DNA of 64,000 bases from Gordonibacter massiliensis (ex Traore et al. 2017) (lineage in GTDB: Bacteria; Actinomycetota; Coriobacteriia; Coriobacteriales; Eggerthellaceae). Shown piece by piece: positions 407 to 8,295 of the stretch (position 1 is its first letter; the number at the start of each line of letters is the position of its first letter). The DNA lies in NCBI GenBank assembly GCA_900170005.1, contig LT827128.1, positions 1,426,001 through 1,490,000 on the forward strand. Reading direction: 5' to 3'. The notes under the pieces are model-generated. The model was not told the DNA's origin. It saw nothing but the letters and a program-made list of their open reading frames with translations, and did no database searches. The position numbers were made by a program, and so were the translations under genes.

Positions 407-765
407 GATGGTTCCTTTCCTGCCGGGTGCAGACAAAGCACCTGCATCGATTGAGGCCGCGTCTTGAGTGCGCGACCGTGTCCAGTATGCCACGAACGGC
501 CTGGCGGCCAGCCGCGTCCACGATTTCAACAAACGCCGGATCGGGTGAAACGGCACGATCCGCTCCATCAGGACCCCGCGCCCGGCACGATGGAAACGGG
601 CCATGATCCTGCCTTGTGAATAAATGCTATGGGAAAAGCAACAGATAGGTGACAGGAACGGCACCGGCGTCTCCTTCCCGTTACCATAGGGCCTCGCAAA
701 ATACTAAAGCGATTTACTAGAAATTAGAGAAAGCGCACTGAAGCGCTGGACGTGGAACGGAATCG
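407..765. other. Intergenic region between divergent thrS and the surface cassette
   Basis: This roughly 360-bp spacer has no convincing gene. Its cassette-proximal part (about 605-735) is clearly more AT-rich than its surroundings and should hold the promoter of the plus-strand cassette, but I could not find a well-spaced -35/-10 pair. A GGAACGG stretch at 754-760 looks like a ribosome binding site, but it is followed in frame only by ATC and ATA codons. Confidence 0.5.
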
Positions 766-807
766 ATCATAGGCAACTTCGGGAAAACCATACGCCACGG
801 CGTTGTT

Positions 808-3525
808 GTGCTGCTGGCAGTCGTGCTGGCGGCGGGGACCTGCGCGCCCTCCTTCGAGCGCGCGTTCGCCTCCTCGCAGGCCCCCGCCGAAAGCGCGGGG
901 ATGCCGCAGGGCGAAGCGCGCGACGACGCGGCCGACCGGGACGAGCTCGACGACGCGGGCGAACTCTCGCACGAACCCGAGGCGGAGCCGGAAGCGGCCG
1001 AGCCGGAGCGCGGCGGCGCGGATGCCGCCGCAGCAGAAGAGCCCGCTCCCCCCGCCGCCCCGAACGACGTCGAAGACGGCGGCGCGTCCGCAGAACCCCT
1101 CGACGCGGCCGAAGAGGGGCGCGCAAGCTCCCTGGTGACCACGTTCCAAGAGCTTTCCGCAGCCGTCGCCGCGCCGGACGTCGACGCGATCGTCCTCGGC
1201 GGCGACATCGTTATGACCGGGCATATCACCATCCCCGCCGCCAAAACCGCGCTGACGATAGACGGCCAGGGCCGCTACGCGCTCGAGCAGCAGGGAGCGA
1301 CCACGCTCATCTCGTCTTCGACCGCGCGCCCCGTGTACACGCTGAGGAACATGACGATCGTCGGGCGAACCTACTACGGCGTGGTCTGGTGCACCGCGGC
1401 GTCCGGTGCGCCGACCATCGTCCTCGACAACGTCGACTACACGGGCCCCCAGCTCGTGTACAACCGATACGGCAACGTGTCGTTCGTCGGCGAGAACAAC
1501 GTGCTCGTCAAGTCGAACGGAAGCAACTCGAACACGGCCGAGGAGATAGGCGAGGTGCACGGCGTTTCCGTGCTCGGCAAGCTCACCGTCGAATCGACGT
1601 CGGTCGGCAGCGCCTTCTTCTGGATGTTCGGCGCAGGGTCCGAGAAGCCCTTTCTCACGATCGCGAGCGGGGCGCAGGCGTCCTTCAAGACTTCCGCCAA
1701 CACCGGCCGGGGCTTCTTCTGGATCGAGGGCACGACCTACAACGTCGTCTTGAACGTCGAGGATGGCGCGTCCCTCCTTGTCGACATAACGGGATACAAC
1801 CCGCTGAGCACGGCGGAGGACCACCGCGTCGACTCGATGCGCATCGGAAGGAACGCCACGGCGGTGTTCAACTTCGCCGGAGGCATCGCCCTTTCCAACG
1901 AGCTCGTCGTGGAGGAGGGCGCCATCCTGCGGATGAACTACCTCAACAAGCCGGGAACGAACGGCTCTGCGTACGCGTACCCGCTGTTCCGCTTCCTCAG
2001 CCCGGCCGGAGGCGACCCCGTCGTGCAGATCGACCGGGCGAAAGCGGTGGTCTTCGCCGTGCAGCCCTCGAACAGGCCCATCTTCGGCTTGGCGCAGGCG
2101 AACTCCCTGCGGTTCGCCACGACGGACTTCAACTACTGGCCGACCTACGCATCTGCGGCCGCGCAGGAGAAGCCCGCCCGCATGTGGTCCTCCGAAGACC
2201 CCGACGGACTCCTTGCAACCCTCGATTTGGCCGCAGGCCAAGACGTGCTGAAGTCCATCGCCTCGAACGACGACGGCCTCGCCGCCGAGTTCGACCCCAA
2301 GGGCGCCCGCGTCATCCAGGTGGGCACCGAGCCCCTGCTCCTGGCCCCCGAGCGGCAGTGGGTCCACTCCGCCGCCGCAACCGGATCGACGGAGCCCGCC
2401 GCGCGGGTCTACGTCGACTACGCAGGCAACGACGGTTCGGAGCGGAGCTTTTCGGGAACCAGCGACGACGCCGGGCGTTACTCCGTGGCGATAGACAACA
2501 CGGCCGTCGACTCCCGAACCGCGCTCGAGGTGACCGCGGTCCACGACTTCGTCGCCCTCAAGAGGAAGGTCGCGGTGCTCGAAGCCGAAAGCCCCTCGGC
2601 CGACCCCGTCCTCCAAATCGTCAGGCAGGGCGACCCGTTCCCTATGGACGCATGGGCGCTTATCGAGAACGCCGACGCCGGCGACGAGGGCCCCTTGCAG
2701 GCCGTCATCGCCGAGGCGCCCGGCACCGACGTCGTCGGGCCGGCCGTCGCCAAAGTCGCGCTGACCAACGCCACGGGGAAAGGCGCCCTCGTGACGGTGC
2801 CCGTGTTCGTCACCGACGAGAGCACCGTCGTGGACGCGGCGCGCCGCGTCGCGCTGCGCGCGGAGGACTTCTCGTTCCGAATGGGCGAATTCCCCCGCGA
2901 CGACGCGGCGAGGTTCGTCCTGGATCGGAGCCGCGCCCAGGCGTGGGACGTTCTGACCGGTGAGGACCTGTCCCCGGAGATCGCCCTGCCCGACGACCCT
3001 TTGGCGGAAGCGGCGGGGACGCAAACCGTCACGCTGTCGGCGCGGGGCGTCGAGCGCGCCATCGCGGTCACCATCGTCGACGAGGCTCAGTGGGTCGACG
3101 TCCGCATCCCCACGAAGATGCTCTTCGGGACGCTCGACGTGTACGAGGGCGGCAAGATCGTCTCTCCGCTCTACGAGATAGAGAACGGCTCCAGCCTCCC
3201 CCTGAGCGTGTCCCTTGCCGGGTTCGACGTCGCGGAAGGCGACGGGGTCAACCTGATGAGCGGGCTCGAAGCGGCATCGGGCGGCAACGACCTCAAGCTC
3301 GACCTCAGCGTCGACGGGGCGACGGCCCTCGAGTACCTGCACCCCTTCGCCGCCGAGAGCCCGTCGGCCGGCTGGCGGGCGACGCTCGCCCCGTCAGCGC
3401 GCAGCCGCCTTGCCTTTTCCGGCACCTACCTCGGAGCCTTCTCGCCCGGAGTGGTGCACCGCCCCTCATATTCCCTGGTGTGGTCGTTCGCACCGGTGTT
3501 CGAAGGAGAAACCTATGATCGATAA
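808..3525 (+). CDS. Secreted pectate-lyase-like adhesive protein with a novel C-terminal surface domain
   Basis: Predicted exported surface protein of about 905 residues. A hydrophobic signal segment (LLAVVLAAGT) ends near FERAFAS and is followed by an acidic, Ala/Glu-rich low-complexity stretch to about residue 105. Residues about 110-370 look like the right-handed beta-helix 'pectate lyase-like adhesive' domain: LTIDGQGRYAL, TLRNMTIVGRTYYGVVW, and VDYTGPQLVYNRYGNVSF. In Firmicutes that domain is often joined to WxL cell-wall modules. Two Ig-like beta modules follow. The last 150 residues, beginning WVDVRIPTKMLFGTL and ending near YSLVWSF, are homologous to the protein at 4161-4823. The GTG at 808 lacks the positively charged n-region, and in-frame sequence upstream (GKTIRHGVVV) would supply it. 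The true start may therefore be a rare codon near 766-769. The gene overlaps the next one by 11 bases. Confidence 0.7.
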   Translation: MLLAVVLAAGTCAPSFERAFASSQAPAESAGMPQGEARDDAADRDELDDAGELSHEPEAEPEAAEPERGGADAAAAEEPAPPAAPNDVEDGGASAEPLDAAEEGRASSLVTTFQELSAAVAAPDVDAIVLGGDIVMTGHITIPAAKTALTIDGQGRYALEQQGATTLISSSTARPVYTLRNMTIVGRTYYGVVWCTAASGAPTIVLDNVDYTGPQLVYNRYGNVSFVGENNVLVKSNGSNSNTAEEIGEVHGVSVLGKLTVESTSVGSAFFWMFGAGSEKPFLTIASGAQASFKTSANTGRGFFWIEGTTYNVVLNVEDGASLLVDITGYNPLSTAEDHRVDSMRIGRNATAVFNFAGGIALSNELVVEEGAILRMNYLNKPGTNGSAYAYPLFRFLSPAGGDPVVQIDRAKAVVFAVQPSNRPIFGLAQANSLRFATTDFNYWPTYASAAAQEKPARMWSSEDPDGLLATLDLAAGQDVLKSIASNDDGLAAEFDPKGARVIQVGTEPLLLAPERQWVHSAAATGSTEPAARVYVDYAGNDGSERSFSGTSDDAGRYSVAIDNTAVDSRTALEVTAVHDFVALKRKVAVLEAESPSADPVLQIVRQGDPFPMDAWALIENADAGDEGPLQAVIAEAPGTDVVGPAVAKVALTNATGKGALVTVPVFVTDESTVVDAARRVALRAEDFSFRMGEFPRDDAARFVLDRSRAQAWDVLTGEDLSPEIALPDDPLAEAAGTQTVTLSARGVERAIAVTIVDEAQWVDVRIPTKMLFGTLDVYEGGKIVSPLYEIENGSSLPLSVSLAGFDVAEGDGVNLMSGLEAASGGNDLKLDLSVDGATALEYLHPFAAESPSAGWRATLAPSARSRLAFSGTYLGAFSPGVVHRPSYSLVWSFAPVFEGETYDR

Positions 3526-4120
3526 CGACATGAACGATAGGGGCGCAAGGCAAGCGCCCATCCAAACGGAACCGCCCGACGCGTCGGAAGGCGCGCGGGA
3601 AAAGCGGCGGAGGAACAGGAAGCTGTTGCTCGCGCTCCTCCTCCTTCTGCTCCTGCTCGTTTTGGGCACGTGCACGGCTGCGCGCTTCCTCGGCGACAAG
3701 CAGGAAGACGCGCCGGCCGCCGTCGCGATCATGCCCGGGCTCGACGCGAACGCCGAGGACATCGCCGATCGCGAGGGCATGGAGAACGCCATGCAGAACA
3801 CGGCCGACGCGAACTACTTCACGCTGCAGGTCAACCCCGAAGCGTCCTTCTCCTCGCAGACGGGCGAAGGAAGGTTCGAACTGGTCAACCCGTTCGACAA
3901 CGTCTTTCCCATCTCGTTCGATATAACCCTCGACGAGAGCGGGCGGACGATCTACCAATCGGGGGCGGTCATGCCCGGCAAGCAGATCAGGGGCATCACG
4001 CTCGCCTCGAAGCCTGATCCCGGCTCTTACCAGGCAACCGTCAATGTTTTCATATACGACCGGCAGACGCAGGAAAAGGAAGGTGAGACCAAAGTGAAAA
4101 TTACCCTGAACGTCGAATAA
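3515..4120 (+). CDS. Membrane-anchored beta-sandwich protein of the surface cassette
   Basis: A 201-residue type II membrane protein of unknown function. A cytoplasmic head (residues 1-36) ends in the very basic REKRRRNRK. One leucine-rich transmembrane helix follows (about 37-56, LLLALLLLLLLLVLG), and the rest is extracytoplasmic. Residues about 100-201 form an all-beta domain with FELVNPFDNVFPISFDITL, an IYQSGAVMPGKQI turn and PGSYQATVNVFIYD. This pattern recurs in small Gram-positive surface proteins that bind other wall proteins, though I cannot name the family. ATG 3515 follows AAGGAGAAACCT and overlaps the upstream adhesin gene by 11 bases, indicating translational coupling. Its role is probably to anchor or assemble the two neighbouring secreted proteins, which is inference from context. 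Confidence 0.8.
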   Translation: MIDNDMNDRGARQAPIQTEPPDASEGAREKRRRNRKLLLALLLLLLLLVLGTCTAARFLGDKQEDAPAAVAIMPGLDANAEDIADREGMENAMQNTADANYFTLQVNPEASFSSQTGEGRFELVNPFDNVFPISFDITLDESGRTIYQSGAVMPGKQIRGITLASKPDPGSYQATVNVFIYDRQTQEKEGETKVKITLNVE

Positions 4121-4160
4121 GGCATCGATCGAAAGCAACGCACACGACAAGGAGTCGACC

Positions 4161-4823
4161 ATGACCAAGAACAAAAAGCTCTTGTCCGTTTTCCTGGTGT
4201 TCGGGTTGGTCGCGGCCATCGCCCTGACCCCCCTCGCCGCGTACGCATGGGAAGACGGATCGGAAGGCAACAGCGAGAACGCGAACAGCAGCGGCGTCCA
4301 GGGCACGTCGGACGGAAAGACCGACGTCGAAGGCTGGATAGGCACCTTCGACGGCGGGGAGGACCCGAACCGCCCCGATCCCCCCGCCGAATCGTGGGTG
4401 AACGTCAAGATCCCCACGACCGCGCTTTTCGGATCGCTTTCGAGCGACGCCGGAGCGGTGTACTCCCCCGTCTACCGCATCTACAACCACTCGGCACGCG
4501 GCGTGACCGTGGAGCCGACGGGCTTCACCAAGATCTCTGAGCCCCTCGAGCTTGCGGGGATGGTGCTGAACCTGAACTTCACGCACCCGAACAGCCTGAC
4601 CGTGCCGTTGAGAAGCGCCGACGACGCCTTTCTGGGCGCCGGCTTGACGAGCCCGGGATCGATCACCCTGGGCGCAGGATCCGAGTCCTCGCCGCAGACC
4701 GCGGCCTTCACCATGAGCGGCCAGCTGCCCGAGGGCTTCAACTATCCCAGCAACGCGCCCCATCAGCCCAGGTACGGCCTGGTGTTCAGCTTCACCGCGG
4801 AACCGCCCGCAGCCGTGCAGTAA
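4161..4823 (+). CDS. Small secreted protein sharing the C-terminal domain of the upstream adhesin
   Basis: A 220-residue exported protein. The signal peptide is MTKNKKLLSVFLVFGLVAAI through AYA (cleavage near residue 29), followed by a Ser/Asn/Gly-rich linker. Residues about 75-210 carry the same domain as the end of the 808-3525 protein: WVNVKIPTTALFGSL here versus WVDVRIPTKMLFGTL there, then SPVYRIYNHS versus SPLYEIENGS, and a closing YGLVFSF versus YSLVWSF. The layout (VxIP..LFG opening strand, Y-x-L-V-aromatic-S-F closing strand) is reminiscent of WxL wall-binding domains but too divergent to assign. ATG 4161 has a clean AAGGAG ribosome site, 40 bases after the preceding stop, so the three genes form one operon ended by the hairpin at 4883. 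Confidence 0.8.
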   Translation: MTKNKKLLSVFLVFGLVAAIALTPLAAYAWEDGSEGNSENANSSGVQGTSDGKTDVEGWIGTFDGGEDPNRPDPPAESWVNVKIPTTALFGSLSSDAGAVYSPVYRIYNHSARGVTVEPTGFTKISEPLELAGMVLNLNFTHPNSLTVPLRSADDAFLGAGLTSPGSITLGAGSESSPQTAAFTMSGQLPEGFNYPSNAPHQPRYGLVFSFTAEPPAAVQ

Positions 4824-4882
4824 GGGAGGAGGCGCGCATGTCCGCCCGCGAGACGCGGGCTGGCATGCGGTCCCCAAACGAC

Positions 4883-4928
4883 GAGAACCGCCCCGTGCTC
4901 CAAGGAACACGGGGCGGTTCTCTTTCTT
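4883..4928. terminator. Strong intrinsic terminator closing the surface cassette
   Basis: A perfect 15-bp stem (4883-4897 with 4908-4922, opening GAGAACCGCCCCGTG) and a 10-nt loop are followed by TTTCTT. It lies between convergent genes, 60 bases after the cassette stop and 14 bases before the stop of the zinc-ribbon gene. Confidence 0.85.
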
Positions 4929-4941
4929 GGCGATGCGGGTT

Positions 4942-5490
4942 CTACTGGATGGGCGGCTCGCCTTGCGGAGCGCGCGAGCGAACCTGCCTCTGCTGAGCAG
5001 CCGCCTGCTGCGGCTGCTGCGCGCGGGCTCGCGGGGCGCTGCGACGCGCCGCCGGGGCCGCGCCGCCCACGGGGGTGGCGCAGTACGGGCACACGGTCCA
5101 CGAGGGGTCGAGCGCGTGGTTGCAGGTTCCGCACAGGTTCTTCAGGCGCTGATGGCAGTTCGGGCAGAGCACGAAGTCGGCCTCCACCGGATAGCCGCAG
5201 TTCGCGCATTCGCCGTACTTCATGAGCTCGCGTTGCTTGAGCGCGATCTCCAGCTCCTGCTCGTCGCGGTCGATCTGCAGAAGCGGCGGACGCAGCAGGC
5301 AGTAGGCGATGATGCCGAGCAGCGGGATGAGCGCCACGATGGCCCACACGTACCAGTAGGAGCCGCGCAGGTAGGCGTCGCGGACGACCCAGACGATGGA
5401 CAGCACGTACAGGATAACCAGCAGCACCACGACCACGGTGAACGCGGCTTGCAGTTCGGGGGTCCACAGCTGGGCCAGCAGTTCGTTCAT
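4942..5490 (-). CDS. Membrane protein with PLD_N-like helices and a double zinc ribbon
   Basis: 182 residues, function unknown. Two transmembrane helices at about residues 15-36 and 43-66 flank WVVRDAYLRGSYWYVW. This is the pattern of the small phospholipase-D nuclease N-terminal (PLDc_N-like) membrane module. After a charged coiled stretch (RDEQELEIALKQRELMKY) come four CxxC knuckles, CANC, CPNC, CGTC and CPYC, forming a double zinc ribbon on the cytoplasmic side. The last 45 residues are Ala/Gln/Arg-rich and probably disordered. It lies downstream of valS on the same strand but appears to have its own extended -10 promoter. The family link is by motif only. Confidence 0.8.
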   Translation of the reverse strand: MNELLAQLWTPELQAAFTVVVVLLVILYVLSIVWVVRDAYLRGSYWYVWAIVALIPLLGIIAYCLLRPPLLQIDRDEQELEIALKQRELMKYGECANCGYPVEADFVLCPNCHQRLKNLCGTCNHALDPSWTVCPYCATPVGGAAPAARRSAPRARAQQPQQAAAQQRQVRSRAPQGEPPIQ

Positions 5491-5610: not shown

Positions 5611-8295
5611 TCAGGCAATTTCCGCAAGCTGGGCCTCCACGCGGGCCAGCTTGTCGGCGAGCTCGGCGTGCTTGGCGCGGTCCTTCTCCACGATCTCGGG
5701 CGCGGCCTTCGCCAAAAAGCCCGGATTGGACAGCTTCTTCTCGAGCTTGCCCGCGTCGGCGGCCAGCTTCGCGCGCTCCTTCTCCAGGCGGGCGCGCTCG
5801 GCGGCGAAGTCCACCAAGCCCGACAGCGCGATGTACACCTCGAGCCCCGCGCCCAGCGTGACGCTGGACTCGGCCGGCTTCTCGGCGTCGGCGGCCATCG
5901 CGAGCGAGGACGTGTTGCCCATGCCCTCGATGAGCCCGCGCTGCGCCTCGAGCAGCGCGACGTCGGCCTCCCCTGCCTTCACCGTCACCGCGAGCGGCGT
6001 CTTCGGCGAGATGCCGTAGCGGGCGCGCGTGCTGCGGATGGCCGACACGCACTCGCACACCATCTCGATGGCGCGCTCGGCCTCTTCGTCCACGTAGGCC
6101 GCGAGCGCCGCGGCGTCCGGCCACGCCGCCCCGATGAGGTACGGAGCGTCCGCACGGTCCAGGGGCAGCTCCTGGTAGATCTCCTCGGTCACGAACGGCA
6201 TGATGGGGTGCAGCAGGCGCAGCGCCTGGTCGAGCACGAACACGAGGTTGCGCTGGCACGCCGCGCGATCCTCCGGCGAACCGGCGAGGCGCGCCTTCGA
6301 GAACTCGATGTACCAGTCGCAGAACTCGTTCCAGAAGAACGAGTACAGCTCGCGCGTGGCCTCGCCGAACTCGAAGGAGTCGAACGCCGCGTCGAGGCGC
6401 GCCACCAAGCCGGCCAGCCGCGAGAATATCCAGCGGTCCGCGGGCGTCGTGGGCTCGGGGTCGCCGGGCTCGAAGCCGTCCAGGTTCATCATGACGAAGC
6501 GGGCGGCGTTGCGGATCTTGTTCGCGAAGTTGCGCGAGCTTTCCAGCTTCGCCTCGTTGAACTTGAGGTCCTGGGCGCCCGTCACCTGCATGAGCAGGCC
6601 GAAGCGCATGCCGTCGGCGCCGTAGTCCTCCATGAGGCGCAGCGGGTCCACGCCGTTGCCGCGGCTCTTGGACATGGGCTTGCCGTCGGCGGCCATCACC
6701 GTGGGGTGGATGATGACGTGCTCGAAGGGGATCTGGTCGGTGCAGTACATCGACGCCATCACCATGCGCGCCACCCACAGGCCCATGATGTCGCGGGCGG
6801 TGGAGAGCACCTGCGTGGGGTACGCGGCGCGCATCTCGGGCGCGTCGACCCCCTCCTCCGTCCAGCCCATCGTGGCGAACGGCCACAGCTGCGACGAGAA
6901 CCACGTGTCCAGCACGTCCTCGTCTTGGCGCACGGGCTTGCCGCACACGGGGCACACGTCGATGTCCTCCACGCTGGCGTCTTCCCAGCCGCACTCGTCG
7001 CAGTAGAACATGGGGATGCGATGCCCCCACCACAGCTGGCGCGAGATGCACCAGTCCTTGAGGTTGGCCAGCCAGTCGAGGTAGACCTGGCGCCAGCGCT
7101 CGGGATGGAACTGGATGGAGCCGTCCTCCACCACGCGCGCCGCGTCCTCTTTGAGGCCGTCCACGGCCACGAACCACTGCTCGGACTCCCAGGGCTCCAG
7201 CTTCGTGTGGCAGCGGTAGCACGTCATGACCGAGTGGTCGTGGTCCTCCACCTTTTCCAACAGCCCCAGCTCGTCGAACGCGGCCACCACGGCCTCGCGG
7301 GCCTCGTCGCGGTCCATGCCGCTGAACTTCCCGTAGCCGTCCACCACGTGCGCCGTCTCGTCGAAGATGTTGATGCGCGCAAGGCCGTTGCGCTCGCCCA
7401 TGGCCCAGTCGTTCGGGTCGTGCGACGGCGTCACCTTCACGCAGCCGGTGCCGAACTCCCTGTCCACATGCCAGTCGGCGAAGATGGGGATCTCGCGGTC
7501 CACGAGCGGCAACTTCACCGTCTTGCCCACGAGGTGCTTGAAGCGCTCGTCCTTCGGGTTCACTGCCACGCCCGTGTCGCCGAGCATCGTCTCGGGGCGC
7601 GTCGTGGCCACCACGAGGTACTCCAGGCCGTCCTCCGGCTCGGTGAGCGGGTAGCGCAAGTACCACAGGTGCCCCGTCTCGTCCACGTACTCGGCCTCGT
7701 CGTCGGAGATGGACGTGGTGCAGTGCGGGCACCAGTTCACGATGCGCTTGCCCTTGTAGATGAGGTCGTCGTGGTACCAGTCCACGAACAGCTTCCGCAC
7801 GGCCTTCACGTACGCCGGCTCCAGCGTGAAGTGCTCGTCGTCGTAGTCGCACGAGCAGCCCATGCCCTTGATCTGGTTCACGATGGTGGTGCCGTACTCC
7901 TTGTACCAGTCGTAGCACGCCTCGATGAACGCCTCGCGGCCGATCTCCAAGCGGCTGATGCCCTGGTCGGCCAGCTTCTTGTCCACCTTGGTCTGCGTGG
8001 AGATGCCGGCGTGGTCGGTGCCCAGGATCCAGCGCGTGGGACGCCCCTGCATGCGCGCGCGGCGGATGCACGTGTCCTGGATGGTGTCGTTGAGGGCATG
8101 GCCCATGTGCAGCACGCCCGTGATGTTCGGCGGCGGGATGACGATGGTGTAGGGCTCGCCCTTCTTGGCGCCGAAGCCCTCGCCGCGCTGGAAGTAGCCG
8201 GCGTCTTTCCACGCCTGGAAAAGCGGGCGCTCGTGCGCCGCGAAGTCGTAGTCGATCTTCTTCGCCCCGGTGCTCTCGTTCGTGTTCTCGGCCAT
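5611..8295 (-). CDS. valS: Valyl-tRNA synthetase
   Basis: Class Ia aminoacyl-tRNA synthetase that attaches valine to tRNA-Val, 894 residues, full length for the bacterial enzyme. The HIGH signature is HMGH at residues 63-66 after PPPNITGVL, and the KMSKS loop is MSKSR at 541-545. In between lie the editing domain (TTRPETMLGDTGVAVNP near 231) and a zinc-knuckle insert with CDEC and CPVC at about 432-451. The C-terminus ends in the usual Val-RS coiled coil (FAAERARLEKERAKLAAD). ATG 8295 is preceded by a weak GAAAGAG ribosome site. It is separated from clpX by a repeat-filled spacer, so it is probably transcribed on its own. Confidence 0.97.
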   Translation of the reverse strand: MAENTNESTGAKKIDYDFAAHERPLFQAWKDAGYFQRGEGFGAKKGEPYTIVIPPPNITGVLHMGHALNDTIQDTCIRRARMQGRPTRWILGTDHAGISTQTKVDKKLADQGISRLEIGREAFIEACYDWYKEYGTTIVNQIKGMGCSCDYDDEHFTLEPAYVKAVRKLFVDWYHDDLIYKGKRIVNWCPHCTTSISDDEAEYVDETGHLWYLRYPLTEPEDGLEYLVVATTRPETMLGDTGVAVNPKDERFKHLVGKTVKLPLVDREIPIFADWHVDREFGTGCVKVTPSHDPNDWAMGERNGLARINIFDETAHVVDGYGKFSGMDRDEAREAVVAAFDELGLLEKVEDHDHSVMTCYRCHTKLEPWESEQWFVAVDGLKEDAARVVEDGSIQFHPERWRQVYLDWLANLKDWCISRQLWWGHRIPMFYCDECGWEDASVEDIDVCPVCGKPVRQDEDVLDTWFSSQLWPFATMGWTEEGVDAPEMRAAYPTQVLSTARDIMGLWVARMVMASMYCTDQIPFEHVIIHPTVMAADGKPMSKSRGNGVDPLRLMEDYGADGMRFGLLMQVTGAQDLKFNEAKLESSRNFANKIRNAARFVMMNLDGFEPGDPEPTTPADRWIFSRLAGLVARLDAAFDSFEFGEATRELYSFFWNEFCDWYIEFSKARLAGSPEDRAACQRNLVFVLDQALRLLHPIMPFVTEEIYQELPLDRADAPYLIGAAWPDAAALAAYVDEEAERAIEMVCECVSAIRSTRARYGISPKTPLAVTVKAGEADVALLEAQRGLIEGMGNTSSLAMAADAEKPAESSVTLGAGLEVYIALSGLVDFAAERARLEKERAKLAADAGKLEKKLSNPGFLAKAAPEIVEKDRAKHAELADKLARVEAQLAEIA

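Follow-up and report, generated by a model that had tools for sequence, protein, structure and literature searches.

In Bacilli, WxL clusters encode a large adhesin and a small secreted protein that have a common C-terminal domain, and a membrane-tethered partner of the immunoglobulin (Ig) type, WxLIP, is encoded alongside; the clusters of Enterococcus also have a pectate-lyase-like adhesin. How the WxL domain and WxLIP function is still argued mostly from models. A hairpin strand of WxLIP has been predicted to fit a gap in WxL and so complete the WxL sandwich (PMC10599100), and a WxL/EfmWxLIP1 entry is held in the Protein Data Bank (9i25). Here, we analyzed a three-gene cassette in a 64,000-nucleotide stretch of Gordonibacter massiliensis (contig LT827128.1, positions 1,426,001 to 1,490,000; hereafter the window), in a genome of 3.95 Mb. 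Like the Bacilli clusters, the cassette encodes a large adhesin (gene 1) and a small secreted protein (gene 3) with a common C-terminal domain, plus a membrane-tethered Ig-type protein (gene 2), and like those of Enterococcus its adhesin is pectate-lyase-like; unlike them, its C-terminal domain is not recognizable as WxL. We consider it probable that the cassette displays proteins at the surface non-covalently by means of three components, in the manner of a WxL locus but with a different domain and a different partner. We found no description of the locus in the literature.

A three-gene cassette with a shared C-terminal domain

The three genes lie in the same direction on the forward strand and resemble a transcription unit. 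Gene 1 (808 to 3525; 905 amino acids counted from a GTG at 808) encodes the secreted large adhesin, gene 2 (3515 to 4120; 201 amino acids) the membrane-tethered partner, and gene 3 (4161 to 4823; 220 amino acids, with a signal peptide) the small secreted protein. Genes 1 and 2 overlap by exactly 11 bases (3515 to 3525), the length given in the initial annotation, and 40 bases separate genes 2 and 3. The last ~140 residues of gene 1 (3085 to 3510, forward strand; WVDVRIPTKMLFGTL to YSLVWSF) and the core of gene 3 (4392 to 4796, forward strand; WVNVKIPTTALFGSL to YGLVFSF) had been read as one domain, and both BLASTP and profile searches bear this out; we refer to the domain as domC. The C-terminus of gene 1 (3085 to 3525) matches gene 3 with 44 identities in 143 positions (31%; E = 4e-8). 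A domC profile built from relatives only, excluding the sequences of the window and of Gordonibacter 28C, detects it in genes 1 and 3 and in the orthologues of both at 13 to 21 bits, whereas WxL controls score at most 3.3 bits with the same profile. The domC family has no credible match in Pfam or NCBIfam.

The body of gene 1 connects the cassette to described WxL adhesins. Residues 110 to 218 (1135 to 1461, forward strand) match Pectate_lyase_5 (PF20585), a beta-helix adhesive domain, with an hmmscan E value of 2.7e-11. For comparison, we took real WxL clusters from plasmids (Listeria innocua, L086; Enterococcus, L082 to L089). By BLASTP, residues 86 to 778 of gene 1 in the numbering from 808 (1063 to 3141, forward strand) are homologous to the large WxL adhesin of L. 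innocua, with 27% identity over 720 columns (E = 4e-64). The Listeria gene adjoins a small WxL gene and a DUF916/DUF3324 gene. The alignment breaks off where the C-terminal domain opens, on its first strand (WVDVRIPTKMLFGTLDV in gene 1, LKFNHVPATMSFESIEL in Listeria), and all other matches of gene 1 in the plasmid collection likewise end before domC. Because the alignment to the Listeria adhesin ends at the domain boundary, with nothing detectable beyond it, we conclude from these comparisons that the adhesins have homologous bodies but different C-terminal domains. Both arrangements occur within the Coriobacteriia: in the window genome, Gordonibacter 28C (G003) and a species of a second genus (G196), the related bodies end in domC and are accompanied by gene 2, whereas in two other genomes (G039 and G087) bodies related to gene 1, matching it more weakly than the Listeria protein does, end in WxL, and the same genomes encode DUF916 partners. 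In gene 1, domC is followed by neither a membrane helix nor a motif of the LPXTG type. This natural exchange of C-terminal domains on a homologous body offers a clean experiment on the function of the WxL domain and WxLIP.

Gene 2 has a lysine- and arginine-rich N-terminus, a single transmembrane helix (3623 to 3682, forward strand; preceded by REKRRRNRK and seen in both sequence and model) and an Ig-like beta-sandwich (3815 to 4117, forward strand) on the outside. AlphaFold2 models the sandwich with a predicted local distance difference test score (pLDDT) mostly above 90 and block means of 92 to 97, and the fold comparison agrees, in keeping with the membrane-anchored beta-sandwich initially read from the sequence. 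The model's structural neighbors include PapD-type chaperones, amid many other Ig domains; the WxLIP entries 9i1y and 9i25 are not among the fold matches listed, an absence that excludes nothing. As candidates for a known family, Pfam and NCBIfam offered only chance-level matches to low-complexity or transmembrane segments, and neither DUF916 nor DUF3324 matched gene 2 or any of 23 relatives.

Pairing of domC and gene 2 across the Coriobacteriia

The best evidence that the domC and gene 2 families act together is that they are nearly obligately paired. Among 296 Coriobacteriia genomes, 67 carry the gene 2 family (54 at E = 1e-10 or better) and 46 carry domC (profile search, E = 1e-5); when the two lists were compared by eye, gene 2 was present in every one of the 46 domC-positive genomes. 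A domC gene stands directly beside gene 2, usually downstream, in 26 of 30 gene 2 loci, which were sampled one per genome and include many genomes that gave nothing to the domC profile. By phmmer alone, gene 3 (P0003) had appeared restricted to two species, a limit of sensitivity that the profiles overcame. A testable role in surface display can now be proposed for these two unannotated families, which co-occur in dozens of species of gut Coriobacteriia. This pairing leaves little room for the reading, which we consider very improbable, that genes 1 to 3 are mere neighbors with no joint mechanism and domC a generic module of the Ig-like kind that surface proteins freely shuffle, since the co-occurrence extends to every domC-positive genome, adjacency is the rule, and the full set of three genes occurs at two sites unrelated to each other.

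The complete trio is present in three species of two genera, so the expectation that the three genes would be conserved together was borne out. In Gordonibacter 28C it occupies the same site with 87% DNA identity, and in the second genus it lies at an unrelated site among other neighboring genes. The gene 1 orthologues are 80% and 60% identical, respectively, and both genomes have gene 3 orthologues. In three other Gordonibacter species, a segment corresponding to 539 to 4934 is missing at the same site (blastn junctions at 538 and at 4935 or 4951), leaving no more than ~54 to 84 bases between the flanking genes. The cassette is either mobile, or lost in some lineages and kept in others.

Beyond the trio, several Coriobacteriia genomes have some 12 or more members of the gene 2 family. 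Bigger loci begin with a large domC protein that has InlB-type repeats, followed by gene 2, a small domC protein, another gene 2 and, last, a large protein with a TGD motif and a membrane tail at its end. The gene 2 family is also found in Oscillospiraceae and other Clostridia; among 396 sampled genomes of the phylum to which the Coriobacteriia belong, it was not found outside that class. The window's genome itself has two further loci of the gene 2/domC kind. One (L035:3684-9954, at ~473.7 to 480.0 kb of contig C1) contains a large InlB-repeat gene that spans two frames near L035 positions 8060 to 8200, where the sequence is partly repeated; this gene may be interrupted or misassembled. In the other (L036:6851-9647, at ~3894.9 to 3897.6 kb of C1), the small protein ends in VVWTLAAV, with a last strand resembling W-x-L. 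Adlercreutzia sp. ZJ304 (G020; for example, loci L041 to L044) has at least 25 gene 2 copies, accompanied by domC genes both small and large, in a 2-Mb genome, a multiplicity that suggests diversification of surface proteins.

Relation to WxL and models of display

The initial annotation had taken the cassette for a divergent actinobacterial counterpart of the Firmicutes WxL loci, and this interpretation is partly supported: it recognized the type of locus correctly but not the family. The likeness in architecture and in the adhesin body stands; membership in WxL is not supported, since domC is not recognizable as WxL and the partner is not DUF916/DUF3324. Nor is the locus simply the WxL system of Actinobacteria, because genuine WxL loci with DUF916 occur in a few Coriobacteriia and the gene 2/domC system extends to the Clostridia named above. 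True WxL loci were found in 3 of the 296 Coriobacteriia genomes, separate from the gene 2/domC system. They belong to the same class and have Pectate_lyase_5-type bodies related to gene 1, but they carry true PF13731 together with PF06030 and PF11797. These loci, with their DUF916/DUF3324 partners, are L138 and L139 in G087, L141 and L156 in G039, and L142 in G060; G087 also carries a gene 2 family member, on a different contig from its WxL loci.

Three sequence tests led us to reject WxL membership for domC at the level of sequence. First, the WxL family PF13731 has no match in the whole genome, genes 1 to 3 included, although it is a weak test that misses the large WxL domain of L. innocua and falls below the cut-off on a large WxL protein of G087. 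Second, profile-profile comparison of domC with large WxL domains gave a probability of 0.5%, and a second domC alignment gave 0.15% against the same WxL set. The positive controls reached 98.6% for large versus small WxL and 98.9% for the window's domC versus class-wide domC, two alignments that have members in common. The score between domC and WxL was equaled by a column shuffle, and WxL and domC profiles sort the two sets of proteins apart. Third, the D-x-R-G and first W-x-L motifs are absent from the domC of genes 1 and 3, which have IENGSSLPLSV and IYNHSARGVTV, respectively, at that place; the two end in YSLVWSF and YGLVFSF, and only the last W-x-L motif has counterparts, in some relatives. 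As a separate observation, the large WxL protein of L. innocua (L086:7578-10043) is annotated as hypothetical. Given this annotation and the failure of PF13731 to match the protein, databases probably list too few large WxL proteins.

The best reading of these comparisons is that gene 2 takes the place of WxLIP and domC that of WxL, as a parallel or radically diverged form of WxL-type display. The gene 1 protein would be exported and would present its beta-helix adhesin, which may act on host or mucus ligands, while domC, its last domain, would serve as a retention module of which gene 3 is a free copy. Gene 2, fixed in the membrane by its one N-terminal helix with the Ig-like domain outside, would receive, stabilize or retain the domC proteins. 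Binding of domC to gene 2 or to the wall is favored by the near-obligate co-occurrence and by the swap at the exact WxL position; the contact would most likely be beta-strand pairing between gene 2 and domC. The structural neighbors of the two models, strand-exchanging subunits for domC and PapD-type chaperones among many Ig domains for gene 2, are compatible with strand complementation, although such scores alone prove nothing. More tentatively, we suggest that Coriobacteriia and some gut Clostridia may possess a second, independently evolved WxL-type display, in which a membrane-anchored, chaperone-like Ig protein would complete or hold an unannotated C-terminal domain by beta-strand complementation, and that related adhesin bodies may have been exchanged between the domC anchor and WxL.

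Several observations weigh against this picture, beginning with the failure of profile-profile comparison to link domC with WxL. The domC model is moderate (pLDDT 71, predicted template modeling score 0.68), its fold Z-scores are middling (8.1 at best), and Ig-like sandwiches match many things. WxLIP comprises DUF916 and DUF3324, two Ig domains and a C-terminal helix, whereas gene 2 has one Ig domain and an N-terminal anchor. Eight of the 54 genomes with a strong gene 2 match lack domC at E = 1e-5. Finally, expression of gene 1 in this genome is uncertain because its start codon is doubtful here.

A possible alternative, though one to which we give less than even credence, is that the cassette is a WxL locus by descent: domC would be a genuine WxL domain that has diverged to an extreme degree, and gene 2 a WxLIP reduced to a single Ig domain, with its anchor shifted to the N-terminus. 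Remote homology of this kind deserves consideration because the landmarks of the two domains are collinear and the large WxL domain of Listeria is itself barely detected by WxL profiles. The collinear landmarks are a first strand of the form [VI]P..[LM].F and a C-terminal aromatic-x-aliphatic strand; between them, domC has Y.I.N.S..P..V, a polar turn leading into a hydrophobic strand, where WxL has V.D.RG...W.L. Ends of the form W-x-V/L/I, such as the VVWTLAAV noted above, occur in 16 of 51 domC proteins, and domC stands at the same position after a homologous body. Gene 2 also scores against the DUF3324 region of WxLIP above all 40 of 40 column shuffles in its best local alignment, yet with a non-significant hhalign probability of only 3% (0.2% against the DUF916 region). 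Against descent stand the profile-profile probabilities of 0.1 to 0.5% where large and small WxL reach 98.6%, the missing D-x-R-G and first W-x-L motifs together with a score that shuffling reproduces, and the coexistence of genuine WxL and DUF916 loci in the same class.

We regard as unlikely a third reading, in which domC is a subunit domain of fibers like TasA or the donor-strand pili, gene 3 polymerizes, gene 1 is an adhesin at the tip and gene 2 assists assembly from the membrane to which it is bound. It draws on the structural neighbors of the domC model, which are headed by archaeal pili (7ueg; Z 8.1, root-mean-square deviation 3.6, 129 aligned), CanA, Fim/Pap pilin domains and TasA, all of them strand-exchanging subunits, and on the PapD-type chaperones near gene 2; one domain common to a large protein and a small free one would also suit it. 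The solved WxL structure, 9i25, is not among the fold matches listed for domC, and such an absence excludes nothing. The likeness to these fibers (TasA, 8aur; FimG; the PapG pilin domain; 7ueg; CanA) lies in the overall sandwich, and there is no sequence match; Z-scores of about 8 or less can mean no more than a common arrangement. In addition, the cassette contains no fiber assembly gene of the sortase, usher or SipW-like type, and domC is C-terminal in the large adhesin, a position more like that of an anchor than that of a pilus tip.

Boundaries of the cassette and the start of gene 1

The cassette has thrS as its left neighbor, while to its right lie valS and a zinc-ribbon gene; all three are on the opposite strand. 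The GTG at 808 is a doubtful start for gene 1 because the charged start of the signal peptide would be cut off. At the place of an ATG in the Gordonibacter 28C orthologue, the window reads ATA (790 to 792), and gene 1 of the third species, G196, starts with ATG further upstream. Judging from these alignments, the true start may lie upstream, within 766 to 792. Downstream of gene 3, the terminator proposed initially is matched by a strong hairpin with a T-rich tail (4883 to 4928; -35 kcal/mol, fold z -7.0), which was missed by a consensus scan and picked up by folding. The hairpin is symmetric and resembles a bidirectional terminator, and it may also terminate the convergent gene at 4942 to 5490.

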